Source of the DNA: an uncultured Clostridia bacterium
Lineage (GTDB): Bacteria > Bacillota > Clostridia > Oscillospirales > Ruminococcaceae
Direction of reading: 5' to 3'
DNA: 64,000 bases
NCBI GenBank assembly: GCA_947627875.1
Contig: CANQXS010000009.1
Span: forward strand, 29,208-93,207
Positions 20,352-55,833 of this stretch are shown here, one piece after another. The position numbers and the translations under genes are program-made. The notes below the pieces were generated by a model. That model was given only the letters and a program-made list of their open reading frames with translations. It was not told the origin of the DNA and did no database searches. The first letter of the stretch is position 1; every line of letters starts with the position of its first letter.

Positions 20352-22163
20352 TTATTCGCCTATGCGCATCGCGACCTCTGCCGCAGTCTCCTTCGCCAGC
20401 CTTTTTAGCTCCGAGGCGCTCATCTCGCCGTTTTGCCCCAAAATTTCGTTTCGCGCGTTGAATATCGGGGAGATGTATTCAATAGGTCTGCATCGCCATT
20501 CTACATAGCAGTTTTCGTCGGGCTCGAGCTCCGGATATAAGTCGCTCTCGGGGACGACGCCCTTAATATCGCCATTGTAAACGTCGAATAAAAACTCCAA
20601 GAACTTGACCGCGTTGCCGTAGTTCGGCGACTGCGGGTTCATCAGATACACGTTCGCAGTGAGCATCGTAACGCTGTCGCCGAAGGGCATCTTCTTTCTG
20701 TTGCCGGTCGGATTGTCGTTGAAATACTTAAACAGCTTATAGAGCTCGTCGCCGCTCGGGTCGGAATACCTCGCCTCGGCGACATCTACGTTTTCCGCAA
20801 GGTAGATATTCTCCGAAACGACCAGCGAATAGCTGAAATTGCTGCCGTTCTCGGGAAAGTTTTCTTCGGAGCAGTAATTCGAAATGCTTATCGGTACGCC
20901 GAAATACTTCCCGTCGCAGCTCACTACCGCTTCGACGGTTTTGTTGCCCGAGATTCTGGAGTTCAGGCTTTCTACCGTCTTTAGGTCGACGAAGGTTCCG
21001 GCGCTCAGGTAGTTCTGAAATCCGGTCCCCGCATTGAATATATCGAAATCCGAGTCGCCCGCCATAAGCTTTACCGTGCGCTTGTCGTCATCGGTTTTTG
21101 CGATCCCGACCAAAATTCCCGACTCTTTTTCAAAGGCGTAAATAATGTCGTCCGAGGCGTGCCCGAGTATCGTTATGCTTTCGGGAGGGTTCAGATAGTC
21201 GTAGATAATGCATTCATCGCCTGCGGTCGAGACCGCCCAGACGATGTTTTCATATATGCCGACGAAAAACTCGGTCCCGTATTTTGCGGCGATATGATAT
21301 CTGTTGAGGACGATGCTGTCGGTGTCGGAAAGGGAGTATTCGGCAATCATGCAGGGGTCGTCGATAGCCGTGTCGTCTTTAAACGCCGCCCCGTAAGGCA
21401 CACCGAACATAATCGCGGTATCGGTCTTTTGGGAGTAGACGACTCCGGGATAGTATCTTGTATCAAGCTCCTGAAGCGATTTGCTCTTGCCGGTCTCGGG
21501 GTCGTACTCGCTGAGCTGCATATAGCCGAAAACGGCGTTCTCGGTTACCGAAAGCAGCTTGTCGCCCTTATACGGGAAGAAGCTTATCCCGTAGTTCGGA
21601 GCGGGTTTTGAAAGAGTCTGCTCCTTGGTCTCGCGGGAATAAATCAGTATGTTTGTCTCGATGAGCTTTTCGCCCTTAGTCACGCATTTAAAGACGGCAT
21701 AGCTGTCGGTGACCTCCATCTCCTCGACCAAATCGATGCTTTCTATCGGGAACGGTATATCGTCAGTGCTGCCCGACGAAGGGTCGTATTCCGATAGGAG
21801 AGCATCGCCGAGGAAATAGGTATAGAGCTTCCCGCCGTGGGCAGAGATTGCCGAAGCTGAGGCGTCGAACAGCTTTCCTGATTCGCCGGATTTAATGTCG
21901 AGGAAATATACCGCCCCCTCTGTCAGGAGGTACAGCGCAGTTTCGATTTGTGCAATATCCTTGATTTCTGCCGCGGGAACGGGCAGAGCGAGCCCTTCGG
22001 CAGGGGATACGGCGTAGTATTTAACGCTCCTGCCGAAAACCGAGCTTGTGTTCGAGACGGTTTTCGACGGGCTTTCGTCGGGCCTGTGCATCGACTCTGA
22101 GCTTTCGGAGCAGGCGGTTAAAATCAGCAAAACTGCCGTAACGGCGGCAAAAAATCTTTTCAT
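20352..22163 (-). CDS. Secreted lipoprotein: propeller-like N-terminus plus partial solute-binding-protein-like C-terminus
   Basis: Lipobox LLILTAC; SBP-like DIFNAGTGFQNYLSAGTFVDL and GNAVKFLEFLFD. Confidence 0.65.
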   Translation of the reverse strand: MKRFFAAVTAVLLILTACSESSESMHRPDESPSKTVSNTSSVFGRSVKYYAVSPAEGLALPVPAAEIKDIAQIETALYLLTEGAVYFLDIKSGESGKLFDASASAISAHGGKLYTYFLGDALLSEYDPSSGSTDDIPFPIESIDLVEEMEVTDSYAVFKCVTKGEKLIETNILIYSRETKEQTLSKPAPNYGISFFPYKGDKLLSVTENAVFGYMQLSEYDPETGKSKSLQELDTRYYPGVVYSQKTDTAIMFGVPYGAAFKDDTAIDDPCMIAEYSLSDTDSIVLNRYHIAAKYGTEFFVGIYENIVWAVSTAGDECIIYDYLNPPESITILGHASDDIIYAFEKESGILVGIAKTDDDKRTVKLMAGDSDFDIFNAGTGFQNYLSAGTFVDLKTVESLNSRISGNKTVEAVVSCDGKYFGVPISISNYCSEENFPENGSNFSYSLVVSENIYLAENVDVAEARYSDPSGDELYKLFKYFNDNPTGNRKKMPFGDSVTMLTANVYLMNPQSPNYGNAVKFLEFLFDVYNGDIKGVVPESDLYPELEPDENCYVEWRCRPIEYISPIFNARNEILGQNGEMSASELKRLAKETAAEVAMRIGE

Positions 22164-22239
22164 AGCGACCTCCTTGGGCGATTTTATGCTTTTATTATGC
22201 ATTCTTCCCCAAGGTAAGAGTCAATACCCGAAGCGCAAG

Positions 22240-26070: not shown

Positions 26071-29000
26071 TTATCCTTCGATGAAGGATACCTCGCGCCT
26101 GCCCTCTACGGGCTGTTCGATTTCGACCTGCTCGCCTTCGTCTTCGGTCGGGACATCAACTGTTCCCGTATTGAAGTTATATCCGCAGACGGAGCAGACT
26201 CCGTTGACAAAGTAGTGCGGAGCGTAGTCGAGCGTGGTGCTGCAGAAGGCGCAGTTTCTCCAGTGATCGGCGTTGCTGTATCTCCAAGCGCCGGCTTCGT
26301 GGTAATGAGTCCAGGGGACTACCGACGGCGTTACGTCGAGATACATAAGCGCGTAGGTAGAGAACCTGTCGGTCTTGAAGGTAACGGTGTTCGGGTCGCT
26401 GTCGAGGTCGGAAAGAACGCTCGCCTTGCCCTCGTGGACTCTTACTACCGCAAATTCCCTGCCGGTGGCTCTGAGAGCCTCGGGAACGGTTATAACAAGG
26501 GTAATCGGGTTCTTGAGCTCGTGGATATCGGTTTCGGTGGCGCCGATCTTCTTTGAAAGCTCGATGTCGAGGTATTCGGCAACGGTGTAGTCGCCGGCGG
26601 CTTCCTCGGCAGCCTTAACGTCGCTCTCGGAGACGGTATCGTTCGCTCCGCTCACGGCGAGGACTATCTCGACCTCTTCGCCTTTCTCTACGGCAGCCTT
26701 ATCCTCTTCGGTAAGGACTTCCTCTTCGAGCGCCTTAGCGTCGGCGGCGGGGAGAGCCGTTGCGGGAGCTCCGCCTTCGGTCTCAACGTCGGTATTTACG
26801 TCGCCGGGTTCAACAAGCTTTGTGCCTTCGGCAGTCCTTGTATCCTTGGCACCGCAGCCGTTGTCGCAGACGGCGGTCTCGGTTCCGTCGGATTCTAACG
26901 TCGCGTCGTTGTTATAAACGTATTTAGTGAAGCTGTGACCGAGGGCGCTGTCTTTGACTTCTCTTTCTTCGGAGAGCGCACCGCAGACGTCGCATTTTGC
27001 CTGTTCAACAGCGTTTTCGGTGCAGGTGGCTTCCTTTATAATCTCATAATTCGTGAAGATATGAGTGTGGAGCTTTGTGCCTTCGGCGGGTCTTGTATCC
27101 TTGGTGCCGCAGCCGCGGTCGCAGACGGCGGTCTCGGTTCCGTCGGATTCTAATGTCGCGTCGTTGTTATAAACGTATTTAGTGAAGCTGTGACCGAGGG
27201 CGCTGCCTTCGACTTCTCTCGGCTCGGAAGGCTCTCCGCAGACGTCGCACCTTGCCTGCTCAACAGCGTTCTCGGTGCAGGTTGCTTCCTTTATAATCTC
27301 ATAATTCGTGAAGATATGAGTGTGGAGCTTTGTGCCTTCGGCGGGTCTTGTATCCTTGGCACCGCAGCCGCGGTCGCAGACGGCGGTCTCGGTTCCGTCG
27401 GATTCTAATGTCGCGTCGTTGTTATAAACGTATTTAGTGAAGCTGTGTCCGAGGGCGCTGCCTTCAACTTCTCTCGGCTCGGAAGGCTCGCCGCAAACGT
27501 CGCACCTTGCCTGCTCAACTGCGTTTTCGGTGCAGGTGGCTTCCTTAACTATCTCGTATTTGGTGAAGCTGTGACCGTGGAACTGAGTGCCGGGAGCGGG
27601 TCTTGTATCCTTGGTGCCGCAGCCGTTGTCGCAGACGGCGGTCTCGGTTCCGTCGGCGTCCATAGTCGCGTCGTTGTTATAGACGTAGTTTGTGAAGCTG
27701 TGACCTAAAGCGGTGCCTTCCTCGGTCCATTCTCTTAAGGTGATGTGGCAGCGTTCGCATTCAGCCTGCATAACCGCGTCGGCAGTGCAGGTCGCGGGAG
27801 TCTTGACGGTGGGGATACCCTCGCTGTGGTCAAGAGCGCTGCCTTCGACCTCTCTTTCTTCGGAGAGGGTTCCGCAGATGTCGCAAGCTGCCTGCTCAAC
27901 GGCGTTATCGAGGCAGGTGGCTTCCTTTATGATCTTATAATTCGTGAACGTGTGAGAATGGAGCTTTGAGTCGGGAACCTCGCGGGTCTCAGAGGTTCCG
28001 CAGCCGTAGTCGCAGTATGCGATCTCAGTGGCGTTCTTATCGATGGTAGCGCCTTCGTAGGGCTGCCAATCGGTGAAGAGGTGTTCGGTCTTCGGATGCT
28101 CGGGATCGTCAACGGTCTCTAACGCCCCGCAAACGCTGCACTCGTGGGTCATTGTGCCGTTCTTCTGGCAGGTGGCGTCGTAGTTATATGAGAAATCTCC
28201 GTAGGTATGACCGGTTGCTTCGATCTTTCTGTAATCCTCTAAGTCGCAGACCTCGCATACATAGATGTTTGCGCCGGGCTCGAGGCAGCTCGCGGGTATT
28301 ACTTCCGAAGGAAGAGCGCCGTATTTATGGTCGTTGGTCTTGGGGATCATCTTATCTTCTTTTGTGGCGTCGCACTTCGAGCAGTGGATAGACTCGCTGC
28401 CTTCCTTGGCGCAGGTGGCTTCCTCATCGACGGTATAGTGGTCTTCCCAATCGTGACCGTCGGCGGGGTCTTCCTTATATTCGCGGAACTTGCAGACCTC
28501 ACATTCGCGGTAATGTCTGCCGGCTGCTACGCAAGTCGATTCTGTCTCGACCTGCCAATCGCCGAATTTATGCCCGGCGGGAACGGTGCGCTCTACCTGC
28601 TTTGTAGCGCCGCAGCCTTCGGCGGTGCAGACGTAAACGTCGGTATAAGAGCCGTCTACGGTGCAGCTTTCCTGAACGTTGACGACGGTCCTTGCGGGCT
28701 CGGTGCCGAAGGAGTGCTCTACGGTCTCCTCAACTTTGCACCACATATTGGTGCATTTTCTTGTGTGGCTTCCGTTGAGATTATCTACCCAAGGAGTGAA
28801 GGAATGCTGCGCTATAGCGGGTCTGGCGACATTTCCGCAGAGGGTGCATTCAAGGGCAGTTGTGCAGTCGTCGTCGTTTTCGTAGACATGCATCTGAGTC
28901 AATACATAGCCGCAGTCCTTGCAGGTCCTTGTGTGATTCAGATTGTTCTCCCTTTCGTAATTGCCGTAGTTGTGGGTGCCTCTCGGAAGGGAAGCGCCGC

Positions 29001-30507
29001 ACTCGGTGCATTTGGTGGGAGTGTCGCAGGCGACGTTATCGGGGCGGACGTGAGGAGATTTTTCATCTATCCGGCTGCAGCCCGGGTTGGAGCAGACTCT
29101 CCAGTGGTTGTCGTTGTCGCTCTGATATGTCTCGAAGTGGTGCTCCAAAGCCTCGACCATAATTTCCCCGCACCTTATGCACTTTACGGGCGTGGTGCAG
29201 TCGTTATCTACGGTCGCGGGGTCCTGCTCATGACCGAGCGGGTCGAGCGGTATCTCTTTGCTGCCCGGCTTTACGGCTTTGCAGTTGACGCAGACTTCTT
29301 CCTGCTTGCCCGCTTTGTCACAGGTGGGCTCAACGGTAGTCTGAATCTGATAGTCATGCGCAAGCGCGGGGAATGTATGCCCCGTTTCGGTGGCGCCGCA
29401 CCTTGTGCACTTAACGTTGCCTTCGCCCTCGTGATCGCAGGAGGGAGCAACGGTGTAGTCGCCGTCGAGCACCCAGTTGTGTCCGAGCGGGTAGATGACG
29501 TTATAGGTGTCGGTAGCGGTGCAGCCTTCGTTGCGGCAGTGGCGCTCATAATAGCCCCAGCCAACGCAGGTGGGCTCGGTATAAGTCGTGTATTCGCCTA
29601 ATTCCAAACCCGGGAAATCGTGCTTGACCGTTGTCTCCTCTGTATCTACGGTTGAGGGGTCGATTACGCCGCAGTTTTTGCACATTTGGTATTCTATGTA
29701 ATCATGATAGCAGGTCGCTTCTTCGGTGTGCAGCTCAAATTCGTGACCCTCTTTGTTGACAGACGGGCTTCCTTCCTTGAGCTGTATATAGCCGCACCTC
29801 GAGCACTTCTCATAAATGACAGTGCCGTCTTCGTTGCAGGTGGATTCTATCTCAAATTCCTCGGTAAAGCTGTGTCCTAAAGGCTCGCCCTTGGTGTCTT
29901 GCTTCTCATAGCTGTAATACATACTGTCGCAGACCTTGCAGAAGTAATGCATTTCCTGTACCGACGGTTTGGTGCAGGTCGCGGGAATGTCAACGCTGTC
30001 GCGCCTGCCGAGCATATGACCGATATAGAAATTCTTCTGAATCGACAGTCCGCTGCCGTATGTGATTTTGATGAACACATGCTCCGCTGTGTCGGCAGGG
30101 AGCGTAGCGGTAACGGTCGTATTATTGAGCTCGGAGAGCGATGCAGGCTGAATAGCTTCGGCAGGTACGCATTTATAGCTCTTGTCGTATTCGCCGACAT
30201 TGAACTCAACGTTGCTGATATTGCCGTTAGTGGAGGTGATGACTATTTCGTCGGGGACCTCGCAGAGGAATGAGGCGCCGGAGAAATGACCGGTGCTCAG
30301 CTTAAGTACGACTTTAATGCCGCCTTCGTTTATAAATGTCTGTTCGGTCACGGGCGCTGCCGCAGCGGGGGCGGGGGCGTCGTAACTCTGAGTTGGGGCT
30401 TCTTCGGGGAGATATGCGCCGTCGGCAGCCAAAGCGGGAAGCAGCCCGGTGATAAGCAGCGACAGACACATCATCAGCGATAAAGCCGAGTGAAGCGTTT
30501 TCTTCAT
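26071..30507 (-). CDS. Giant secreted CxxC-repeat protein (about 1478 aa)
   Basis: Signal peptide MKKTLHSALSLMMCLSLLITGLLPALA; more than 20 CxxC-type repeats with GH[ST]F/ATC motifs. Confidence 0.85.
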   Translation of the reverse strand: MKKTLHSALSLMMCLSLLITGLLPALAADGAYLPEEAPTQSYDAPAPAAAAPVTEQTFINEGGIKVVLKLSTGHFSGASFLCEVPDEIVITSTNGNISNVEFNVGEYDKSYKCVPAEAIQPASLSELNNTTVTATLPADTAEHVFIKITYGSGLSIQKNFYIGHMLGRRDSVDIPATCTKPSVQEMHYFCKVCDSMYYSYEKQDTKGEPLGHSFTEEFEIESTCNEDGTVIYEKCSRCGYIQLKEGSPSVNKEGHEFELHTEEATCYHDYIEYQMCKNCGVIDPSTVDTEETTVKHDFPGLELGEYTTYTEPTCVGWGYYERHCRNEGCTATDTYNVIYPLGHNWVLDGDYTVAPSCDHEGEGNVKCTRCGATETGHTFPALAHDYQIQTTVEPTCDKAGKQEEVCVNCKAVKPGSKEIPLDPLGHEQDPATVDNDCTTPVKCIRCGEIMVEALEHHFETYQSDNDNHWRVCSNPGCSRIDEKSPHVRPDNVACDTPTKCTECGASLPRGTHNYGNYERENNLNHTRTCKDCGYVLTQMHVYENDDDCTTALECTLCGNVARPAIAQHSFTPWVDNLNGSHTRKCTNMWCKVEETVEHSFGTEPARTVVNVQESCTVDGSYTDVYVCTAEGCGATKQVERTVPAGHKFGDWQVETESTCVAAGRHYRECEVCKFREYKEDPADGHDWEDHYTVDEEATCAKEGSESIHCSKCDATKEDKMIPKTNDHKYGALPSEVIPASCLEPGANIYVCEVCDLEDYRKIEATGHTYGDFSYNYDATCQKNGTMTHECSVCGALETVDDPEHPKTEHLFTDWQPYEGATIDKNATEIAYCDYGCGTSETREVPDSKLHSHTFTNYKIIKEATCLDNAVEQAACDICGTLSEEREVEGSALDHSEGIPTVKTPATCTADAVMQAECERCHITLREWTEEGTALGHSFTNYVYNNDATMDADGTETAVCDNGCGTKDTRPAPGTQFHGHSFTKYEIVKEATCTENAVEQARCDVCGEPSEPREVEGSALGHSFTKYVYNNDATLESDGTETAVCDRGCGAKDTRPAEGTKLHTHIFTNYEIIKEATCTENAVEQARCDVCGEPSEPREVEGSALGHSFTKYVYNNDATLESDGTETAVCDRGCGTKDTRPAEGTKLHTHIFTNYEIIKEATCTENAVEQAKCDVCGALSEEREVKDSALGHSFTKYVYNNDATLESDGTETAVCDNGCGAKDTRTAEGTKLVEPGDVNTDVETEGGAPATALPAADAKALEEEVLTEEDKAAVEKGEEVEIVLAVSGANDTVSESDVKAAEEAAGDYTVAEYLDIELSKKIGATETDIHELKNPITLVITVPEALRATGREFAVVRVHEGKASVLSDLDSDPNTVTFKTDRFSTYALMYLDVTPSVVPWTHYHEAGAWRYSNADHWRNCAFCSTTLDYAPHYFVNGVCSVCGYNFNTGTVDVPTEDEGEQVEIEQPVEGRREVSFIEG
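26825..27845 (-). repeat. In-frame tandem DNA repeats, exact 255-bp (85-aa) period, about 4 copies
   Basis: Anchor cgttgttataaacgtatttagtgaagctgtg near 26910 recurs at +255 and +510, diverged copy at +765; ccttcggc anchor at 26825 and 27080. Confidence 0.9.
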
Positions 30508-30788
30508 TTGTTTTCCTCCTGTTCTTACCGTACAAAAAATCTCGTGCAAAATAATATTGCGCGGGACTTGATGAGCGGGTATAGACGATACGGATTTCTT
30601 CTTGTTATCGCACTTCCATTATACCCTCTCCGCCGGAAAAGTCAAGAGAAAAAAAGCGTTTTCGCCGTTATGCGGAGAAAACAAAATTTACTCTTCCCGA
30701 TTATTGACATAACGCATAAAAAGTTTTAGAATATATATGAAGCGCTACGCCCGAAAAGGGCTGCTTAAAGATTTAAGGAGGATACCGA

Positions 30789-44484: not shown

Positions 44485-44552
44485 AACGAAATTTCGTTTT
44501 GGGGAAAAATCCTTTAATAAAGCTTGAAAATAAAAAAATCGGGTGTTATAAT
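44485..44552 (+). promoter_or_regulatory. Promoter and upstream palindrome of the GH30-like gene
   Basis: AACGAAATTTCGTT (44485-44498), TTGAAA (44524)-17 bp-TATAAT (44547). Confidence 0.55.
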
Positions 44553-44597
44553 TTGGGCATAAGCCAAGCGCACAGCGACCGGAAAGGCGGAATTAAA

Positions 44598-46610
44598 ATG
44601 AAAAAGATTTATCTGAAAAGAGTTGTTTCGATTATGCTCAGTCTGAGTATGGCGGCGATGCTCGCAGGGTGCGGCGGTGAAAGCGAACCCTCCCCGAGCG
44701 GAACGGAGCCTACAGTTACCGAGGAATACATCGACCCCGCGCTGATAGTCACGCCCGACAGTGTAAATATCGACGCGACGGTTACGGTCTCGCCGCTCAA
44801 CGCATTCAAGCAGAACGGCGGAGTCTTCGAGGGCTGGGGAACGAGCCTCTGCTGGTGGGCAAACCGAGTCGGATATTCCGACAGTCTCGCTCAGCAGGCT
44901 GCTGACCTCTTCTTCGGCGAAGACGGCTTGAAGATGAACGTTATGAGATATAACATCGGCGGCGGCGACGACCCCTCTCACACCCACATCACGAGGACCG
45001 ACTCTATGGTCCCCGGCTGGATGGACAAAGACGGCAACTACGACTATACCGCCGACTACAACCAGCTCAACGTATTGGATCGCTGCGTAAAAGCCGCGGG
45101 GGACAACGCTATAGTCGAGGTGTTCTCGAATTCCCCGCCGTATTTTATGACGGTAAGCGGCTGCTCGTCGGGCGGAACGGATTCCAACAAAAACAACCTC
45201 AGGGAAGATTCCTACGAGGCTTTCGCGGAATACCTTGCCCACGTCACCGATTACATTCAGAACCGCCTCGGGATAACGGTAACGAGCGTTTCCCCGATGA
45301 ACGAGCCCAACACAAACTTCTGGGGAGCCTACAGCTATAAGCAGGAGGGCTGCCATTTCGACGCCGGCGAAGCGCAGTCGAAGATAATCGAGCTCACCGC
45401 CGAGGCGCTCAAGCAGTATGACCTCGACAACGTCATCGTCGCCGCGAGCGACGAGACCTCTACCGAGCTCCAGATAATAGAGTATCAGTCCTATTCCGAC
45501 GCCGCCAAAAAGGTCATCGGAAGGATAAACACCCACACCTATAACCCCACGAGGGCAGGCGAGCTCGGTCAGCTTTCGCTCGACGAGGGCTTTAAGCTCT
45601 GGATGAGCGAGGTAGACGGCAACGGCACCGCTGGCGAAGACGCCGGCGAGATGGGCGCCGCTATCTGGTTCGGCGAAAAGATAATCTCGGATATGAATTC
45701 CCTCACCCCTGCCGCGTGGGTAATGTGGCAGGCTATCGACAAGCATATCTGCGCCGAGGGCTATCTCGGCCGCCAGGATTCGGGAATGATAGACATCAAC
45801 ACCGGCTACTGGGGACTTGCCGTCGCCGACCACGACAACGACGACATAATCCTCACCCAAAAATATTACACGATGGGGCAGTTCACCCGCTATATCCGCC
45901 CGGGATACACCCTTATCAGCACCGGCGACGACTCCATAGCCGCCTATAACGACGCCGACGGAACGCTCGTCGTCGTCGCGGTAAACCCGAAGGCTTCGGA
46001 CCGCACCTTTAACTTCGACCTCTCTCAGTTCGAGGCGTTCGGGCACAGGGTAAACGCAATCCGCACGAGCGGCAGCGTTGCCGACGGCGAGAGCTGGGCG
46101 GAGCTCGACGATATCTTTGCCTACGACGGCGGCTTTGTTGCCGAGCTCAAGGCAAATTCCGTAACGACCTTCGTTCTCCATAACGCCAAGGCGGGCAGCA
46201 CCGACCTCGAGGAGGTCTCGATAAAGAAGGCGAAGATAACCGGTTCCGCTGCTTGGAACAACGGCTCCGATACCGTCGACCACGTTATCGACGGCAGGAC
46301 CGACACCTTCTTCGACGGCGTCGCCGACGGCTGGCTCGAAATAGACCTCGGCAAGGGCGTTGAGTTCGACGCGATAGGCTTTGCCCCGAGAAGCGGGTTT
46401 GCCGGAAGAATGGTTGGCGGGAAGTTCTACGGCTCCGACAACGGCAAGGATTGGACCGAGCTCTACGAGATAACTTCGTCTCCCGCGACGGGCTGGAACT
46501 TCGCGATGCTCAAGGGAAGCAAATACCGCTATATCCGCTACGACGTTCCTTCGGGCGGCGGAGATCACCTCTGCAATATCGCCGAGATAAAGCTCTATAA
46601 GCTGAAGTAG
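44598..46610 (+). CDS. GH30 family lipoprotein (endo-beta-1,6-galactanase-like) with C-terminal F5/8 type C (CBM32) domain
   Basis: Lipobox MLAGC; FEGWGTSLCWWAN, MRYNIGGGDDPSH, SPMNEPNTNFWGA, LWMSEVDG; discoidin-like C-terminus. Confidence 0.85.
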   Translation: MKKIYLKRVVSIMLSLSMAAMLAGCGGESEPSPSGTEPTVTEEYIDPALIVTPDSVNIDATVTVSPLNAFKQNGGVFEGWGTSLCWWANRVGYSDSLAQQAADLFFGEDGLKMNVMRYNIGGGDDPSHTHITRTDSMVPGWMDKDGNYDYTADYNQLNVLDRCVKAAGDNAIVEVFSNSPPYFMTVSGCSSGGTDSNKNNLREDSYEAFAEYLAHVTDYIQNRLGITVTSVSPMNEPNTNFWGAYSYKQEGCHFDAGEAQSKIIELTAEALKQYDLDNVIVAASDETSTELQIIEYQSYSDAAKKVIGRINTHTYNPTRAGELGQLSLDEGFKLWMSEVDGNGTAGEDAGEMGAAIWFGEKIISDMNSLTPAAWVMWQAIDKHICAEGYLGRQDSGMIDINTGYWGLAVADHDNDDIILTQKYYTMGQFTRYIRPGYTLISTGDDSIAAYNDADGTLVVVAVNPKASDRTFNFDLSQFEAFGHRVNAIRTSGSVADGESWAELDDIFAYDGGFVAELKANSVTTFVLHNAKAGSTDLEEVSIKKAKITGSAAWNNGSDTVDHVIDGRTDTFFDGVADGWLEIDLGKGVEFDAIGFAPRSGFAGRMVGGKFYGSDNGKDWTELYEITSSPATGWNFAMLKGSKYRYIRYDVPSGGGDHLCNIAEIKLYKLK

Positions 46611-46657: not shown

Positions 46658-49318
46658 TTATTTGAGAGTGAAGTTGTCGAGCAGCAGAGTTGAATTCAGG
46701 CGGCTTTCTGCCTTGAGCTCAACAGTGTTCGAGCCTTTTCTCAGCGTTACGTTATACTTCTTCGTCTCCCAGCCCGAGGTCTTCGGCAGTGTGACCGTCC
46801 CGACGTTCGCGCCGTTGATGTAGAGCGTGAGAGTGACGTCGGATTTGGCGGAATACCTTATTCCGAGGGTGTGGGTGCCGTCCTCAAGGACCGAAACGGT
46901 GTCTCTTACCGCGGTGCCCTGATTCTGCCCGAAGATGAGATATCCTTGAGCGGTGTAGCCGGCGTTTCCGGTGTTATAGCCGTTGGTGACTATCCTTTCG
47001 ACCGCCTTTGTGTCGAAGCATTCCGCTTCATACTGGCGCTCGCCGGTGTAGGCGTCGGGCTTTTTCGGCGCGGTAACCGAGGATTTCGTATAAGAGGTCT
47101 TTCTGCCCTCGGCGGTCCCCTTGCACTTTATTGTTATGTCAACGGGTCCGTTATGCTTTACGGTGAGGGTGTAAACGCCGTTTTCCCAGCTCTCCTCGGC
47201 GGAAGGCTTCGCCTGAGAAGAAGTGCGGGCGGTCATAGTGAAGCTCGGCTTTTCAGAGGCTCCGTTGAGCGTTATAACGTCGGTGCGAAGGGTATAGGCG
47301 CTGTTGTCGTCGTAGTTGTTGAGCCAGAAGTCGATATGATCCGAATACTCCCTGATTATGCCGGAGGAATACATCGAGTAGCTCAGCCCCAGCGAATCGC
47401 AGGTGTTGTATTTGAGATTGAGAGTCGCTTTCGCAAGCTTGTTCTTGAGGTAATAGCTGTAGGTGAACCAGGTGTTTTCATACCTTGCGGCATACATATC
47501 GCCCTTATATTCCTCGGGGAATAGCGAGTTGAACTCGCTTACCTTTGTGTTCACATTCCCCCAGCGGCTGTCGTATTCCGTTACCTTTACCTTTGTCGTA
47601 AAGAGCTTTTCGAGGCTGCTGCTGCGGAATTTATATATTTCGGGGATAGTCGGATATCTGCCGGTGGTCTTATAATGGTAGTAGTTGTTTCTCAGACCGC
47701 CGTCGCCGTCCAGACGGTAGAGCCCCTCGAAGAGATTTTCGGGGGTGCAGAATTTCTGGTCGTCGTTGCCCGAGGTCCTGTCCTGGATTATCGCTACCTT
47801 GGTCCTCTTGATGACCTCCTCGCGGGTGGGGATCCTGAGCGAGCCGTCGACTATCTTCTTGAACATATCAAGGGTCACGTTGTCGTAAACGTCGAAAGTG
47901 TCCCAGCGGCGGGTCTTGTAGCCGTCTTCATTGCCGTTGCTTATTTCGTGGATATCGTCAGCCCAGATGAGCTCGGGACCGTCGATAACAGTCGCGCCGT
48001 TCATAAGCATGCTTTCGAGCATTATCGAAAGTCCGGTAGACTGGGTGTATTTGCCGTCGACGTTTTCGCTCCAGGCGGTCTCGTCGTATCTTACGCCGAA
48101 GTTTCCGCAGTAGCCCGAGAGATAATATCCGAGCACCTGGCTCTGGACGTCGTGCTTATAGGAGCTCTGTGTGTATTTGTCGCAGAGAATGAAGTTGTCG
48201 GCATATTTCGAGAGCTGATCCGCGAAGTAGTTATGGGTCTTGAGCTGGGCGAGCGGGCTGCACCACTGACCCCATTGGTTTCCGCACCAGCTTACTACGA
48301 GATATCCGCCGTATTTGTTGCAGAGCTCAAGCAGGTTTCCGAAGTGCTCATAGCGCTGCGGAAGGGTGGGGGAGCGCTTAGTGCCTGCCTGGTCGTATTT
48401 GTCGTCGAAGCCCCAGAACTGCTCGCAGTAGTTGAAGCCCAGAAAGTTGGGATAGTCGCGGAAGAACTCGCCGTAGAGGGTCTCTTCGAGGTTGTCGCCT
48501 TTCTTATAGTCGGGGAAGTTGCTGAATCCGCCGCTTGCGGGCTGAACCATTACCCAGACTCTTTCCTCGGCGCAGGCGCGTATCCAGGATTTAGCGGTCT
48601 CGTAGCCGCCGTTTTCGCCCGAGCCCGAGCGCTGGAATACTCCGTTGTCGTCGTGACCTATCGAGAGGGAGATGTTGAACACAACATAGGGCAGCAGCTC
48701 GTCGGGGATAAGGTCGATGACCTTCTGAGGGTCGGGGAAGCACCAGGTGTCGATATGTACTATCAGCATCGGCATTTCGTTGGAAAGCGGGCGGCGGAAT
48801 TTAGAGGTCGAGCTTGTTTTTGATGTCGTTGATTTCGCGGTTGTTGCCGCGGTGGTCGTCGCAACGGTAGTCGGAGTCGGCGTTGTGGTAGTGGCGACGG
48901 TAGTCGGCGCGGCAGTTGTGGTAGTTGCAACGGTAGTCGGCGCAGGGGTGGTCGTTGTGGCGACTGTCGTGGGCGCAGGCGTAGTCGTTGTTGCAACGGT
49001 CGTGGGGGCGGGGGTAGTGGTAGTTGCAACCGTCGTAGGAGCGGGAGTTGTAGTCGTCGCGACTGTGGTTGTAGCTTCGGTGGTCGTTGTAGTTGCCTCG
49101 GTAGTCGTTGCCTCGGTGGTGGTGGCTTCGGTGGTGGCTGCTTCGGTCGCCGTCGTAACGGGCTCCGTCGCTTCGGGCGTGACCGTCTCGGCGTCGGCGG
49201 GGGCTTCGGTAATCGTGACTTCGGGCTCGGGAAGCTCGCCGCCGCGGTTTTCCGCCGCGCAGCCGCACATTCCGAACAGCATTACCGCTGCTATAAAGGC
49301 TGTAAATAATCGCTTCAT
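46658..49318 (-). CDS. GH98-like secreted lipoprotein with Thr/Pro linker and C-terminal CBM6/35-like domain
   Basis: Lipobox MFGMCGC; RRPLSNEMPMLIVHIDTWCFPDPQKVIDLIPDELLPYVVFNISLS resembles GH98; C-terminal YEAECFD..FTLK galactose-binding-like fold. Confidence 0.75.
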   Translation of the reverse strand: MKRLFTAFIAAVMLFGMCGCAAENRGGELPEPEVTITEAPADAETVTPEATEPVTTATEAATTEATTTEATTTEATTTTTEATTTVATTTTPAPTTVATTTTPAPTTVATTTTPAPTTVATTTTPAPTTVATTTTAAPTTVATTTTPTPTTVATTTAATTAKSTTSKTSSTSKFRRPLSNEMPMLIVHIDTWCFPDPQKVIDLIPDELLPYVVFNISLSIGHDDNGVFQRSGSGENGGYETAKSWIRACAEERVWVMVQPASGGFSNFPDYKKGDNLEETLYGEFFRDYPNFLGFNYCEQFWGFDDKYDQAGTKRSPTLPQRYEHFGNLLELCNKYGGYLVVSWCGNQWGQWCSPLAQLKTHNYFADQLSKYADNFILCDKYTQSSYKHDVQSQVLGYYLSGYCGNFGVRYDETAWSENVDGKYTQSTGLSIMLESMLMNGATVIDGPELIWADDIHEISNGNEDGYKTRRWDTFDVYDNVTLDMFKKIVDGSLRIPTREEVIKRTKVAIIQDRTSGNDDQKFCTPENLFEGLYRLDGDGGLRNNYYHYKTTGRYPTIPEIYKFRSSSLEKLFTTKVKVTEYDSRWGNVNTKVSEFNSLFPEEYKGDMYAARYENTWFTYSYYLKNKLAKATLNLKYNTCDSLGLSYSMYSSGIIREYSDHIDFWLNNYDDNSAYTLRTDVITLNGASEKPSFTMTARTSSQAKPSAEESWENGVYTLTVKHNGPVDITIKCKGTAEGRKTSYTKSSVTAPKKPDAYTGERQYEAECFDTKAVERIVTNGYNTGNAGYTAQGYLIFGQNQGTAVRDTVSVLEDGTHTLGIRYSAKSDVTLTLYINGANVGTVTLPKTSGWETKKYNVTLRKGSNTVELKAESRLNSTLLLDNFTLK
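48845..49100 (-). repeat. In-frame 33-bp (11-aa) tandem repeats encoding TTTPAPTTVAT linker
   Basis: TTTTPAPTTVA units repeated with mostly synonymous differences. Confidence 0.85.
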
Positions 49319-49569
49319 CAGATGTCCTCCAAGTAAAAATTCGGTCGGCGGATATTACCGCCGATAATGCAATAATAACCTATCCGCACGCAAAAATCCT
49401 TGCATTTTGTCTATAAAATTATTGCGAAATATCGCGGGCTTCTGTAAGAATGATAAAATTTGCTGTTTTCGCGCAAGCAGGAGGCATAACTTGCGTGAAA
49501 AAACCGTTGACATGCTCGGCGAAAGGGTGATAGGATTATAATAACTACTGTTTTGATTGGAGCATTATT

Positions 49570-51666
49570 ATGATGAAAAAGGCCGGAAGGCTGATAGCGG
49601 CGCTCGCCGTTATCCTTGCGCTTATGCTTGCGGGCTGCGCGGATGAGCCCGAAAAGAGCGACGGCTACAGCGTAAGGGTTATCCTGCGCAGGTGCGACGG
49701 AATAAGCATCTCGGGAAAGAACATCGCCGAGGTCGAGGCGGGCAGAACCGTCACGTTTAGGGTGAGCATCGACGAAGGGTATATTTATATCGGCAACACC
49801 GCCGGCGCGGAATACGACGAGGAGGACGGCAGGCTCAGACTCAAAGACGTTTTTGCGCCGACCACCGTCGATATGATAGTCCTGCCGAAGTCTGAAGTCG
49901 TATATCTCGAGGTTAAAAAGAACAGCGACTACGGCAGCGTTTCGGAGTCGGAAATGCTCCTTGCCGGACCTTCCGAGGTGACCCTCAGCGCCGAGGGGAA
50001 GTCGAGGATAGAATTCACGGGGTGGTCGGAAGGGGGCTACCTCGACGGCGGCGGAACGCTTATAAGCACCGACCCGGTCCACACCTTTTATATCGACGCC
50101 AGCAAGGTAATATATGCAAACTTTGCGGGCAGCACCGACTACAGCATAGTTTACCATCTTGACGGCGGCTATGTTTCGGAGACCGGCGAGGATACATATA
50201 TTTCTTATGCGCCGTTCAGCGACCTCTATTCGATGCAGCAGACGATGGAATCGAACGGAAAGCTCGTCAGGGACGGCTATGTCGCCGTCGGCTACAGCAC
50301 CTCTCCCGCAAACTACGAGGATTACGATTCGGCAAACGACATACCCGATTTCTCGAATATGGGCGGCGTATGCGTTGTAGACGGCGACAGCCTCGACCTC
50401 CACGTCGTTTGGGCAAAGGAATCGCCCGATTCCGACTTTATCTATGAAAAAAAGGAGATTGAGGTTATAACCGACTCGACCTTCGGATTCGGCAGGCTGA
50501 ATCAGCGCACCGAAAAGAAGACCGGTATCGAGATAACGGGCTATGTCGGCAAAGATGAGCTCGCGGTAATACCCGAAAAGATCGACGGTCAGCCGGTCCT
50601 CTCGATAGCCTCCGACGCTTTCGGCGGCGACCTCGAGCGTGTGGTCATTCCGAGGACGGTAAAAATAATCGACAAGCGGGCGTTCAGCGCCTGCGAAAAC
50701 CTCCGCGAGGTCGTGTTCTTCGATTCGGTGGTCACGGTATACGACGAGAGCTTTAACCGAAACGTATCTACGGTAGTCCTCAACGCCCAGCGCCTGCCGG
50801 TCTATTCGGGGCAGATAGAGGGCTCGTTCAACGTAAAATACGACCGCCTGAGAACCGTCGAGGGCAAAAAGATAGTAATCGTCGCGGGGTCGTCGTCGCT
50901 AAACGGAATAAATTCCGAGCTCTTCGAGGAGCTTATGCCGGGCTACTCGGTGGTTAATTACGGCACCAACGCCGCCAATCCGTCGCTCTTCTTCCTCGAC
51001 GTTATCTCGAAATACTGCGGCGAGGGGGATATAATCATTCACGCGCCGGAATACGGCGGAGGCGCGCCTATGGGGACAAACGAGTTCCACGCGAAGATGT
51101 TCCGCGGAAACGAGCAGTGCTACGACATTTTCCGCGACGTGGATATGTCCGATTACGTCGGCTTCTGGGACTGCTTCCGCGAATTTCAGGTCGGAGACAC
51201 CTCCGACAGCTCGCTGACTCCGGCGATACATCAGTCGGGCAAGGAATACCAGCTCGACGCCGAGATCAACAAATACGGCGACATCGGGACGGTCAGAAAA
51301 TCGGTAAGGGGCAACTTCGGCGGCGCGTCGGAATCCTTTGTAAGCGCGCGTCTTTACGGCGACAACCTCAACGCCGTCAACGAAAAGATAACCGCCCGCG
51401 GCGCGACCCTCGTTATGAGCTTTGCTCCTCACGACAAATCGAGGATACGCCCCTCGGAGCTAACGCAGGAGTCTTACGGCAAGGTAAACGCCTACTGCGC
51501 CGAAACGCTTGATTACCCCGTTATATCCGACGTCGGGGAATATATTATGGAGCACTCGGAATTCTACGACTCCGAGTGGCACTTAAACGACGAGGGCGCG
51601 AAAAAGCGCACTCAGCACCTTGCCGACGACCTTAAGGCATATCTTGCCGACCCGTCGTCATATTAA
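49570..51666 (+). CDS. Lipoprotein with BspA-type leucine-rich repeat followed by AlgJ-like SGNH domain
   Basis: Lipobox LMLAGC; IPEKIDGQPVLSIASDAFGGDLERVVIPRTVKIIDKRAFSACENL; then GKKIVIVAGSSSLNGINSELFEELMPGYSVVNYG and EWHLNDEGA. Confidence 0.75.
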   Translation: MMKKAGRLIAALAVILALMLAGCADEPEKSDGYSVRVILRRCDGISISGKNIAEVEAGRTVTFRVSIDEGYIYIGNTAGAEYDEEDGRLRLKDVFAPTTVDMIVLPKSEVVYLEVKKNSDYGSVSESEMLLAGPSEVTLSAEGKSRIEFTGWSEGGYLDGGGTLISTDPVHTFYIDASKVIYANFAGSTDYSIVYHLDGGYVSETGEDTYISYAPFSDLYSMQQTMESNGKLVRDGYVAVGYSTSPANYEDYDSANDIPDFSNMGGVCVVDGDSLDLHVVWAKESPDSDFIYEKKEIEVITDSTFGFGRLNQRTEKKTGIEITGYVGKDELAVIPEKIDGQPVLSIASDAFGGDLERVVIPRTVKIIDKRAFSACENLREVVFFDSVVTVYDESFNRNVSTVVLNAQRLPVYSGQIEGSFNVKYDRLRTVEGKKIVIVAGSSSLNGINSELFEELMPGYSVVNYGTNAANPSLFFLDVISKYCGEGDIIIHAPEYGGGAPMGTNEFHAKMFRGNEQCYDIFRDVDMSDYVGFWDCFREFQVGDTSDSSLTPAIHQSGKEYQLDAEINKYGDIGTVRKSVRGNFGGASESFVSARLYGDNLNAVNEKITARGATLVMSFAPHDKSRIRPSELTQESYGKVNAYCAETLDYPVISDVGEYIMEHSEFYDSEWHLNDEGAKKRTQHLADDLKAYLADPSSY

Positions 51667-51686
51667 CGCGGCGGGAGGTATATAAA

Positions 51687-51965
51687 ATGGAAAATTACGA
51701 AGCTCTCGCAAGCGTATGGTTCTGGGTGATAATGGCGGCGATAACCGTCCTTCATATCCTCGCCGTCCCTCTCGGCAGGCTCGATAAAACCGCGCAGACG
51801 GTTCTTACCGCTCTCAACGCCTTTATGCATATCCTTCTTATCGGATATATGCTCGCGGCGGGAGGCTCGCCCGAAGAGCTCTTCTTCGCGCTGCTTTTAA
51901 GCCTTACAGTCGCGCTCTTCACTACAAAATTCAGCGGGAAAGGAGCCGGTAAAGATGGTATTTAA
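51687..51965 (+). CDS. Small membrane protein of the O-acetylation cluster
   Basis: Three hydrophobic helices; lies between SGNH protein and MBOAT, overlapping the MBOAT start. Confidence 0.65.
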   Translation: MENYEALASVWFWVIMAAITVLHILAVPLGRLDKTAQTVLTALNAFMHILLIGYMLAAGGSPEELFFALLLSLTVALFTTKFSGKGAGKDGI

Positions 51966-53439
51966 CTCCTTTTCGTTCCTGATCTTCTTCCCGATTGTCT
52001 TGCTGCTCTACAGGGTGCTCCCGAAAAAAGCAAGGTGGATAATGCTCCTTGCGGCGAGCTACTACTTCTATATGAGCTGGCAGCCCAACCTTATTTACCT
52101 TATTCTTTTCACGACGGTTGTCTCTTACCTCTGCGCTCTGGGGATAGAAAAGTCGCAGAAAAAGGGGATAAAAAAGCTCCTTCTTATAACCGCCCTGACC
52201 GCAAGCCTTGCGGTGCTGTTCTTCTTCAAATACTTCAACTTCCTCTCGCGCAACATAACCGCGCTTTTAAACCTTATAAGGCTGCCGGTCGGGGAGTTTA
52301 CGCTGAACCTCATTCTGCCGGTAGGAATATCGTTCTATACATTCCAGACTCTTTCTTATGTCATCGACGTTTACAGGGGGAAGATGAAAGCCGAGCGGCA
52401 TTTCGGATATTATGCGCTCTATGTCTCCTACTTCCCTCAGCTCGTCGCCGGACCTATCGAGCGCCCAGAAAACCTTCTGCCCCAGCTTCGGGCGGATAAC
52501 CCCTTTTCGGCTGCCGATACCGCCGCAGGGCTGAAAATGATGGCGGTCGGATTCTTTAAAAAGATAGCCGTAGCGGATCAGCTCTCGAAATACGTCGACG
52601 CTGTATATAACGGCGTCGGGAGCGCTGACTCTTCGCTTCTCAACGGCTTCACCGTTTTAATTGCTACCGCGCTTTTCGCGGTACAGATCTACTGCGACTT
52701 CTCGGGCTACACCGACATAGCGATAGGCTGCGCAAGGACGATGGGGATAAAGCTTATGCAGAACTTCAACGACCCCTACAGCGCGACCGACATAAGGGGA
52801 TTCTGGCGAAGGTGGCATATCTCGCTGACCTCCTGGTTCACCGATTACATCTACATACCCCTCGGCGGCTCCCGCAGAGGTCGCGCCCGTCAATACGCCA
52901 ACATCTTCTTCGTTTTCCTTATATCCGGAATATGGCACGGCGCCGACTGGACCTTTATCCTCTGGGGAGTTATGCACGGCGTTTACCAGATAATAGGTCA
53001 TATCACCGAAAAGCCGAGGCGGGCTTTTTGGGATAAGCTCAAGGTCCCGCCCGATGCGAAATGGCTCCTTGCGTTAAAGCGCCTCGTGACGTTTATGCTC
53101 GTTCTTGTCGCTTGGGTCGCGTTCAGAGCAAACAGCCTTTCCGACTTAGGCGTGCTCTATAAGCAGCTCTTTGCGGGCTGGGGCGGAGTAAGCCTTTCCG
53201 ATTCGCTCGGCGCGCTCGGGCTCGGGCTGCTTCCCGCCGCTACCGTTCTGCTCTCGGTAATCGTCACGGGTCAGTTAGACCGGCAGATAGCCCTTAAAAA
53301 TCACTCCGAAAGCGGCTTCGGAGCCGCTGCTTCGGACCGCGCGCTTATGTACGTCGTTCTTTGCTGGACTGTCGCCGCCGCCTGGCTGATACTCCTTGCG
53401 GGCAACGGCGCAAGCTCGTTCATCTATTTCCAGTTCTGA
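51955..53439 (+). CDS. MBOAT family O-acyltransferase (AlgI/DltB-like)
   Basis: VGISFYTFQTLSYVIDVYRG, YFPQLVAGPIERPENLLPQL, FWRRWHISLTSWF, GIWHGADWTFILWG. Confidence 0.95.
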   Translation: MVFNSFSFLIFFPIVLLLYRVLPKKARWIMLLAASYYFYMSWQPNLIYLILFTTVVSYLCALGIEKSQKKGIKKLLLITALTASLAVLFFFKYFNFLSRNITALLNLIRLPVGEFTLNLILPVGISFYTFQTLSYVIDVYRGKMKAERHFGYYALYVSYFPQLVAGPIERPENLLPQLRADNPFSAADTAAGLKMMAVGFFKKIAVADQLSKYVDAVYNGVGSADSSLLNGFTVLIATALFAVQIYCDFSGYTDIAIGCARTMGIKLMQNFNDPYSATDIRGFWRRWHISLTSWFTDYIYIPLGGSRRGRARQYANIFFVFLISGIWHGADWTFILWGVMHGVYQIIGHITEKPRRAFWDKLKVPPDAKWLLALKRLVTFMLVLVAWVAFRANSLSDLGVLYKQLFAGWGGVSLSDSLGALGLGLLPAATVLLSVIVTGQLDRQIALKNHSESGFGAAASDRALMYVVLCWTVAAAWLILLAGNGASSFIYFQF

Positions 53440-53452
53440 GGAGGCGAAGACC

Positions 53453-55717
53453 GTGAATGTGAAAAATACCGAAAGAAAGCGCTTTTATAAGGTCTTCGCG
53501 CCGATGCTTTCGCTGTTTCTTGTGCCGATACTTGCCGTTATAATAATAGCCTTCGCGCTCCCGCCGGTCTACGACGGAACCTTTTTGGGCGAGCTCTCCG
53601 AAAAATACGACCGCCTCGAAAGCTCGGAAGGACCGAAGATAGTTATCGTCGCAGGGAGCTCTGCCGCCTTCGGGCTCGACAGCGGGCTGATATCCGAAGA
53701 ACTCGGGTATGACGTGGTAAACTTCGGGCTTTATGCCAACCTCGGCACAAAGCTTATGATGGACCTCTCGAAGGCAAATATCAACGAGGGGGATATAATG
53801 ATACTCGCGCCGGAGCTGAATTCTCAGACTCTCTCGCTTTATTTCAACTCCGAGACCGCAATTCAGGCTTTAGACGGGAATATGTATATGCTCAAAGACA
53901 TTGATTCCGGCGAATACGAGCGGCTCATCGGGGCATCGTGGGGCTTCGCGGGGGATAAGTTAGGATACATTTACAGCGGAACGCTCCCCGAAAACGCTGG
54001 CGCCTACCGCAAGGAAAACTTCAACGAATACGGCGACAACACCTTCGACCGCCCCTATAATATCCTCTCGGGGTACGGCAACGCCATCTCCCTCGGTTTC
54101 AGGACTGATTACACCGACGGCGTTACCACCGATTACGAGGAATATATCGACTATGTAAACGACTATGTGAAATACGTCCGCAAAAAGGGCGGAGAGGTTT
54201 ATTTCAGCTTCCCGCCGATGAATAAAGAGGCGCTTGCGGGTGTCTCGGACGAAGATATCGAAGATTTTTACCGCAATCTCGTTCTTTCGCTCGACTGCAA
54301 GGTAATAAGCAACATCTATGACTATATCCTCGACGACGGCTATTTCTACGACTCTGAGTTCCACCTCAACAACTCCGGCGTGACCGTCAGAACGGTAAAG
54401 CTTATCGACGACATCAGGCGAGAAATGTCCTCCGACGAGGTGGCGATACCGGTAAGCGAGCTTCCTCAGCCCGCGGGCAAGCGCCCCGACTGCGAAGATT
54501 TCGACCTCGTAAGGCTTTCCGAGGGCAGGGGCTGGGCGATAACCGGCGTTACCGAAACAGGCCGCGAAAAAGCGTATCTCACTATCCCCGACGAGATAAA
54601 CGGGATCCCCGTTACAACGATTTCCGAGGGAGCCCTTTCGGGCTGCGGCAGGCTCGTCCTTCTGACGCTCGGGAAGAATATCGGCGTTATCGAGGAGGGC
54701 GCCGTTGAACGTGTTGCGAGCCTTGGCGGGGTCATAATCCCCCAGGGCGCCGACCCGCGCCTCATAAGTCTGCCCGAGCTCGGCTTCGGAGAGGGCTGCG
54801 CCGAGGGCTTTAAGCTGTATGTTTCGCCCTACGATTACGATGCGTTCAAAAACACAGACGCCTTCAAGCGCTATGCGGATATCATCAGCCTCGAGGAAAG
54901 CTTTGAATATTCGACCGACCCGAGCGGGAGCTACGCGATAGTCGTTTCTCTTACCGACAACGGAAAGATGCGCTCAGAGCTCAGCATACCCGCCGAGCAC
55001 GACGGTCTGCCCGTCAGAATGATAGATATGGACGCCTTCGACGGCGCTGTTCTGCTCGAAAAGTTAGAGATAAGTAAAAATATAAGGGAGATATCGCCCT
55101 ATGCCTTTGCAGGGGCTAAAGAGGGGCTCGAGATCCACCTCGCGGCGGGAACGCCCCTCGGCGAGCTCGTTTTGCCCGAAAGCCCTTCGGCTCTTGGTCT
55201 TAAAGAAATCAGCATTTTCATCGACTGGGAGGAATACGAAGATTATATCCTCTCTGACGTCCTGCCGGAATACAGAAAGATCGTCACAAGCGACAATATG
55301 TATCTTAAGCTCGAAAGAGCCGACGACGGCTCGTTTACGGTCACGGGACTTAGCAACCTAGGAAAGCTCCGGGACGAAATAACGATACCCGATACCGTCA
55401 GCGGAACGCCTGTCAGGACTATAGCCGCCGACGCCTTCGCCGATACCCGCTTTGAAAAGCTCACCCTCGGCAGAAACGTTTCGAGGCTCGACGGCTGGGC
55501 GCTTCGGGGCTCGTCGGTGAAAGTGCTCATCATCCCCGAGGGGATAGGCGCGGGCGACGTTTCGGTGCCGAACAATATGTCGGAATCCCTCGCGACCGAC
55601 GGCTGCGACCCCGCGCTTAAGATTTACGTCGACCCCGAGTTCTACGAGGAATACGCGGGCGACTACTTCTGGGGCGACTACGGGCGATTCCTGGAAAAGG
55701 GATACCCCGAAGAATAA
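53453..55717 (+). CDS. AlgJ-like SGNH protein with C-terminal BspA-type leucine-rich repeats (GTG start)
   Basis: GPKIVIVAGSSAAFGLDSGLISEELGYDVVNFG, EFHLNNSGVTVRT; then repeated IPDEINGIPVTTISEGALSGC-type LRR_5 units. Confidence 0.78.
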   Translation: MNVKNTERKRFYKVFAPMLSLFLVPILAVIIIAFALPPVYDGTFLGELSEKYDRLESSEGPKIVIVAGSSAAFGLDSGLISEELGYDVVNFGLYANLGTKLMMDLSKANINEGDIMILAPELNSQTLSLYFNSETAIQALDGNMYMLKDIDSGEYERLIGASWGFAGDKLGYIYSGTLPENAGAYRKENFNEYGDNTFDRPYNILSGYGNAISLGFRTDYTDGVTTDYEEYIDYVNDYVKYVRKKGGEVYFSFPPMNKEALAGVSDEDIEDFYRNLVLSLDCKVISNIYDYILDDGYFYDSEFHLNNSGVTVRTVKLIDDIRREMSSDEVAIPVSELPQPAGKRPDCEDFDLVRLSEGRGWAITGVTETGREKAYLTIPDEINGIPVTTISEGALSGCGRLVLLTLGKNIGVIEEGAVERVASLGGVIIPQGADPRLISLPELGFGEGCAEGFKLYVSPYDYDAFKNTDAFKRYADIISLEESFEYSTDPSGSYAIVVSLTDNGKMRSELSIPAEHDGLPVRMIDMDAFDGAVLLEKLEISKNIREISPYAFAGAKEGLEIHLAAGTPLGELVLPESPSALGLKEISIFIDWEEYEDYILSDVLPEYRKIVTSDNMYLKLERADDGSFTVTGLSNLGKLRDEITIPDTVSGTPVRTIAADAFADTRFEKLTLGRNVSRLDGWALRGSSVKVLIIPEGIGAGDVSVPNNMSESLATDGCDPALKIYVDPEFYEEYAGDYFWGDYGRFLEKGYPEE

Positions 55718-55730
55718 AGGCATAAAAAAC

Positions 55731-55754
55731 CGCCGCAGCTTTAAAACTGCGGCG
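55731..55754. terminator. Hairpin terminator between SGNH-LRR gene and tRNA-Val
   Basis: CGCCGCAG-CTTTAAAA-CTGCGGCG. Confidence 0.65.
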
Positions 55755-55756
55755 AA

Positions 55757-55833
55757 TGGTGGAAGCTGGCGGGCTCGAACCGCCGACCTCCTGCGTGTGA
55801 AGCAGGCGCTCTGACCGGCTGAGCTAAGTTTCC
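55757..55833 (-). tRNA. tRNA-Val(CAC), CCA encoded
   Basis: Minus strand GGAAACTTAGCTCAGCCGGTCAGAGCGCCTGCTTCACACGCAGGAGGTCGGCGGTTCGAGCCCGCCAGCTTCCACCA. Confidence 0.95.

Follow-up and report, generated by a model that had tools for sequence, protein, structure and literature searches.

For enzymes that acylate surface polymers, those of alginate included, two questions arise: how the polymer is located, and what makes a second SGNH protein necessary in some systems. A conserved operon with leucine-rich repeats (LRRs) on opposite sides of two SGNH paralogues offers a handle on these questions. It occupies positions 49570-55717 of the window, the 64,000-nucleotide stretch of contig CANQXS010000009.1 analysed here (an uncultured Clostridia bacterium of the family Ruminococcaceae, assembly GCA_947627875.1), and encodes a lipoprotein (p1), a small transmembrane (TM) protein, a membrane-bound O-acyltransferase (MBOAT) and a TM-anchored protein (p4). 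The unusual trait is that both outside enzymes, p1 and p4, are fused to LRR domains, one in front and one behind. On balance it appears probable that the operon forms a transmembrane acyl relay, leading from the MBOAT His over a Tyr to the p4 Ser, then presumably to the p1 Ser and a polymer, with the LRRs presumably serving for positioning. What is transferred would be a small acyl residue, with acetyl the likeliest, and the acceptor is probably a surface polymer; the operon points to an as yet uncharacterised surface polymer bearing acyl groups in uncultured Clostridia of the animal gut.

Gene content and repeat order

A sequence-only reading of this DNA had described an MBOAT flanked by two SGNH proteins with LRRs in swapped order. 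Its coordinates and gene content were correct, including the overlap of the small TM protein with the MBOAT start, which amounts to 11 nucleotides. The genes are:

49570-51666, plus strand: p1, lipoprotein with InlB-like N-terminus, LRR_5 block and SGNH domain, 698 amino acids (aa)
51687-51965, plus strand: small TM protein, 92 aa
51955-53439, plus strand: MBOAT acyltransferase, 494 aa
53453-55717, plus strand: p4, TM-anchored SGNH domain followed by LRR_5 modules, 754 aa, GTG start

The LRR segments, which the earlier reading had wanted confirmed as repeats, are repeats in both proteins. LRR_5 (PF13306) scored above the Pfam cut-off of 27.7 bits in p1 (28.6 bits) and p4 (36.3 bits), and the family profiles matched solved BspA-type LRR structures (p1 1e-39, p4 6e-30; 4gt6). 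The several units predicted in p4 are three modules about 133 residues apart, with mutual similarities down to E 3e-14 (best of 1000 shuffles, 1.5e-3) and an identical order of elements in the AlphaFold2 model. In p1 the LRR block is preceded by InlB-like repeats, which the earlier reading had not mentioned; the PF18998 match was weak in the window (E 0.027) and above the cut-off in a homologue (2.7e-8). As the genome contains only one further clear LRR_5 protein, a 443-residue LRR open reading frame (ORF), two adjacent LRR_5 proteins are not background. The order noted earlier, LRR before SGNH in p1 and after it in p4, recurred in every homologous locus examined. The repeat regions are:

49666-50514, plus strand: p1 InlB-like/List_Bact repeat region (PF18998), aa 33-315, all-beta in the AlphaFold2 model
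50515-50844, plus strand: p1 LRR_5 block, aa 316-425
54500-54892, plus strand: p4 LRR_5 module 1, aa 350-480, from Pfam, AlphaFold2 and module self-comparison
54899-55288, plus strand: p4 LRR_5 module 2, aa 483-612, from the same three sources
55301-55702, plus strand: p4 LRR_5 module 3, aa 617-750, with a conserved C-terminal cap, DYFWGDYG, in which Y738 and W740 are invariant among homologues

SGNH domains and catalytic residues

The SGNH family of p1 and p4 was matched by no Pfam or NCBIfam model. AlphaFold2 models, a check proposed in the sequence-only reading, had a mean confidence (pLDDT) of 86 for p1 and 85 for p4. When these were compared with the PDB using Foldseek, p1 matched the SGNH enzymes 2o14 and 1deo and p4 matched DltD (6o93, 7dxm_B) as well as 1deo, all with probability 1.00. 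The E-values were modest (1e-3 to 8e-3), as expected when one domain of a multi-domain chain matches. The models thus point to an SGNH fold in both regions, that of p4 being nearest to DltD.

The earlier SGNH assignment had rested on motifs; across 75 homologous SGNH domains the Ser (GSS), the His and the Glu of a PE motif were each present in 74. An Asp at position -4 from the His was found in 30 of 31 p4, 21 of 35 p1 and 6 of 9 other domains, one p1 (L060 1750) being placed among these nine. The order of the motifs is Ser...Asp-x3-His, the latter part within DSEWHLN / DSEFHLN. The SGNH domains of p1 and p4 are homologous to each other (hhalign 100%, E 1.4e-42), and both keep the block II Gly and have a nearly invariant Glu at the block III position, where Asn is usual in hydrolases. 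The p1 lipobox is LMLAGC, and its Cys23 is at least 90% conserved among homologues. The domains, residues and p4 anchor are located as follows:

50845-51663, plus strand: p1 SGNH domain, aa 426-698, from AlphaFold2, Foldseek and conservation over the 75 domains
50890-50892, 51049-51051, 51568-51570 and 51580-51582, plus strand: p1 Ser441, Glu494, Asp667 and His671
53486-53560, plus strand: p4 N-terminal TM anchor, aa ~12-36, a hydrophobic stretch modelled by AlphaFold2 as helix 2-35
53570-54433, plus strand: p4 SGNH domain, aa 40-327, from Foldseek match to DltD and conservation
53657-53659, 53813-53815, 54350-54352 and 54362-54364, plus strand: p4 Ser69, Glu121, Asp300 and His304

MBOAT and small TM protein

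The MBOAT matched PF03062 (6.9e-34) and DltB structures (3e-29), while its score with the NCBIfam DltB model TIGR04091 was 159 bits, below the cut-off of 375 bits. The candidate catalytic His is His328 in WHG (52936-52938). At its C-terminus lies a short motif:

53419-53436, plus strand: FIYFQF acyl-shuttle motif with Tyr491 (motif function from PMC12148441)

All 33 MBOATs first compared, a few of which were the same species fetched twice, ended in F(I/L)YFQF, and further ones ended in FVYFQF, FAYFQF, FIYMQF or FIYSRF; all fit FXYXXF. In PatA the Tyr of FXYXXF is auto-acetylated from acetyl-coenzyme A (acetyl-CoA) and then feeds PatB (PMC12148441). This match to PatA is the firmest mechanistic anchor for the operon.

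A small hydrophobic ORF is located 5' of the MBOAT in most homologous loci, which suggests a dedicated role in the system for the small TM protein. Its identity with DltX was rejected, since it lacks FXYXXF and the MBOAT carries its own motif.

Phylogeny and distribution

The search for MBOAT and SGNH-LRR neighbourhoods that had been recommended yielded 29 loci with both p1 and p4, mostly from uncultured Clostridia; 28 of these entered the distance analysis, the other being L095, and in one genome p1 and p4 are on separate contigs. Loci with LRR-SGNH, MBOAT and SGNH-LRR proteins occurred in metagenome assemblies and in several families of the same order. Among the record titles of the relatives' assemblies are goat, sheep and roe-deer gut and a 'Lapin' series (presumably rabbit). 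In a sample of 394 genomes of the order, both proteins were present in 16, p4 alone in one and an LRR-less relative in one. The class sample added one genome outside the order with both, and the sole genome of the phylum sample to have them was the window's own. L062, a contig of 6 kb with the label Candidatus Colimorpha enterica (under Bacteroidota), carries this Clostridia-type locus and is possibly mis-binned.

In the tree, p1 formed a single clade (98/93), as did p4 (99/96), with the LRR-less relatives outside both, and the MBOATs of the LRR systems also formed one clade (support 96 in the SH-like approximate likelihood ratio test, SH-aLRT). Because p1, p4 and MBOAT each form one clade, the swapped LRR order was fixed once per paralogue. 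The two domain orders thus go back to two ancient arrangements instead of having arisen independently many times, and no locus examined departs from them. Distances between the proteins co-varied over the 28 loci (p1-p4 r 0.81, p1-MBOAT r 0.79, p4-MBOAT r 0.91), and none of 2000 permutations gave values as high.

The p4 gene adjoins the MBOAT gene in nearly all loci. For p1, the copy number ranges from one to three or the gene is a tandem fusion (L060, L061, L065, L069, L078), and in L066 and L068 it is found downstream of p4; thus p1 copies multiply, and p4 and MBOAT are mostly single. In L058 and L060, p4 is extended at its N-terminus by ~190-220 residues, with a DUF4234 match in L058. The operons of two relatives contain additional genes:

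L068:4249-6490 and L069:3018-4716: AMP-binding ligase and acyl carrier protein of ~81 aa

The gene row of L068 is ligase, carrier protein, small TM protein, MBOAT, p4, p1, and in L069 the ligase and carrier protein are between two MBOAT sets. This Dlt-like layout implies a carrier-bound acyl donor in these two relatives, supplied by a putative Dlt-like donor module; with these additions, a group other than acetyl may be transferred in some lineages.

Comparison with known systems

The operon has the traits of MBOAT-SGNH systems, namely an MBOAT with a conserved His and a C-terminal FXYXXF and an SGNH partner with Ser and His, and is a variant of this type, set apart by an SGNH family and an LRR architecture of its own. 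The suspicion that the system is undescribed agrees with the literature searched (open-licence PMC papers), in which no LRR-bearing MBOAT-SGNH system was found; the variant is apparently undescribed so far.

Like AlgI/AlgJ/AlgX, the operon combines a single MBOAT with two SGNH proteins outside the cytoplasm, one of which is membrane-anchored while the second carries a binding module. AlgX binds and acetylates alginate, whereas AlgJ binds it weakly or not at all (PMC4148444). The operon differs in having LRRs on both SGNH proteins instead of a carbohydrate-binding module (CBM) and in its small TM protein, and no alginate genes were recognised beside it. Of the earlier designation 'AlgJ-like SGNH' only the SGNH fold was retained. 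A circular permutation, a DxH motif and (R/K)TDTHW characterise AlgJ and AlgX (PMC4148444), whereas the orders Ser441...His671 in p1 and Ser69...His304 in p4 are not permuted. In addition, neither domain matched PF14286 or PF16822 (ALGX/DHHW) or showed hhalign similarity to the DHHW protein of the same genome, and membership of AlgJ/DHHW was rejected. The two other MBOATs of the genome have AlgJ/DHHW-type partners, with RTDTHW (L096) and RTDHHW (L097).

PatA/PatB(/Ape1) and PatA1/PatB1 also consist of an MBOAT with C-terminal FXYXXF and a separate SGNH protein; here there are two homologous SGNH-LRR proteins. PatB has Asn in block III and Ser/Asn in block II (PMC12148441), whereas p1 and p4 have Glu and Gly, and PatB membership was rejected at the sequence level. 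As to DltB/DltX/DltD, DltB is the closest relative of the MBOAT among solved structures, and DltD is nearest to p4 in SGNH fold (6o93) and likewise has an N-terminal TM anchor; ligase and carrier protein in L068 and L069 are a further likeness. However, the shuttle motif is on the MBOAT itself and not on DltX, and DltD membership was also rejected at the sequence level, as neither p1 nor p4 matched PF04914 and hhalign probabilities against five DltD sequences were below 1%. No ligase or carrier genes (DltA/DltC) were found near the window operon. A Dlt pathway in this genome was rejected because it has no DltD and no DltA over the cut-off; for the same reason an acyl-CoA donor is favoured, acetyl-CoA being the simplest candidate for the window operon.

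The cellulose acetylation systems WssHIFG and CcsHI, the latter from a Gram-positive bacterium (PMC12148441), share MBOAT and SGNH proteins with the operon, but no cellulose synthase was among the window genes scanned. BspA-type LRR proteins (4gt6, 4fs7, 6mlx) share the LRR_5 fold and repeat and, unlike p1 and p4, are without SGNH acyltransferase domains.

Proposed acyl relay and alternatives

In the proposed relay the MBOAT would load its own Tyr491 with the acyl group of a cytoplasmic donor, which in this organism is probably acetyl-CoA, and membrane-anchored p4 would accept this group onto Ser69. Both steps are suggested by motif identity with the published mechanism, and the transfer to Ser69 is proposed because the p4 gene so constantly adjoins that of the MBOAT. 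p1 would receive the acyl group from p4, or directly from the Tyr motif, and transfer it to a cell-envelope glycan, as AlgX does with alginate; the analogy with AlgX (PMC4148444) is the reason for considering p1 the terminal enzyme. With an InlB-like/LRR stalk that carries the p1 SGNH domain at its tip, the mirrored order would place the catalytic domain of p4 beside the membrane and that of p1 away from it. The LRR blocks, as putative positioning modules, would keep the two enzymes fixed to the polymer or to one another, and the role of the small TM protein would be that of a dedicated accessory subunit. That p4 adjoins the MBOAT and p1 varies in number and position is what one would expect if p4 were the central partner and p1 the end of the relay specific to the acceptor. 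A more specific version, which we put forward tentatively and consider rather doubtful, is that the paired opposite-order solenoids dock, either with each other or jointly to a single polymer, and so provide a scaffold on which the acyl group passes from the membrane-proximal to the distal SGNH domain, the group itself depending on the lineage (acetyl-CoA versus carrier-protein-bound).

Several points weigh against the relay. The hand-over from p4 to p1 is an analogy to the AlgJ/AlgX model, which is itself not fully proven (PMC4148444), and the retained block II Gly differs from the transferases PatB and OatA (PMC12148441). In 14 of 35 p1, Asn or Gly takes the place of the Asp at -4 from the His, so that some p1 copies may be weak enzymes or use a different acid. 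Moreover, no polymer-synthesis genes were recognised beside the operon.

It is unlikely, though the best placed of the competing explanations, that p4 and MBOAT are the transferase and p1 an esterase removing the acyl group, comparable to Ape1 with PatAB or DltE with Dlt. DltE of Lactiplantibacillus is reportedly the D-alanine esterase of the dlt operon and would be one parallel. The other is the PatA/PatB/Ape1 operon, which combines transferase and SGNH esterase (PMC12148441). The block II Gly of p1 is typical of hydrolases and its acid residue is more variable than that of p4, but the p1 and p4 domains are homologous, both have Glu in place of the Asn usual in hydrolases, and it is p1 that multiplies while p4 and MBOAT remain mostly single. 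This variable copy number and the p1 fusions suggest several acceptors, and one shuttle motif could supply several SGNH partners; p1 and p4 might then each use the Tyr motif directly for two acceptors, without hand-over. We rate this somewhat lower still, as direct contact with the membrane-embedded MBOAT is less natural for an SGNH domain located distally on a long lipid-anchored stalk.

Adhesins are known to contain BspA-type LRRs and InlB-like repeats, and the relatives are from animal-gut metagenomes. Both facts would fit LRRs that are host- or mucin-binding modules, modification of the cell's own glycan being only part of an adhesion system. The position of the LRRs relative to SGNH is, however, fixed in every locus, the proteins co-diverge with the MBOAT, and apart from p1 and p4 just one clear LRR_5 protein is encoded in the genome, which makes this explanation quite improbable.

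Operon limits and neighbouring genes

The four genes are likely to be one operon, because they overlap or are at most 21 bases apart and a promoter-like site precedes p1:

49507-49536, plus strand: candidate operon promoter, TTGACA-18-TAGGAT with extended -10, 10/12 in the consensus scan

This site, a sequence match from the consensus scan alone, ends about 33 bases 5' of p1. The most likely start of p4 is the GTG at 53453, with the Shine-Dalgarno sequence AGGAGG upstream.

The operon is adjoined by genes for a GH98 protein with a CBM35-like match and a threonine-rich linker (46658-49318, minus strand) and for a GH30-family protein with an F5/8 type C domain (44499-46610, plus strand). A functional link of the operon with these divergent genes was dropped, as their presence beside it is common to the two nearest species only. 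In another genome of the same genus (L045:5762-11051) a GH98 gene lies immediately 5' of a different MBOAT (46% identical), whose downstream neighbour of 452 aa matched no Pfam family. Two further ORFs of the window, 26074-30549 (minus strand, 1492 aa) and 20355-22202 (minus strand, 616 aa), had no Pfam match at 1e-5. Directly downstream of p4 is a tRNA-Val (CAC) gene at 55757-55833 on the minus strand, and a terminator-like hairpin is present at 55730-55755 on the strand of this tRNA.

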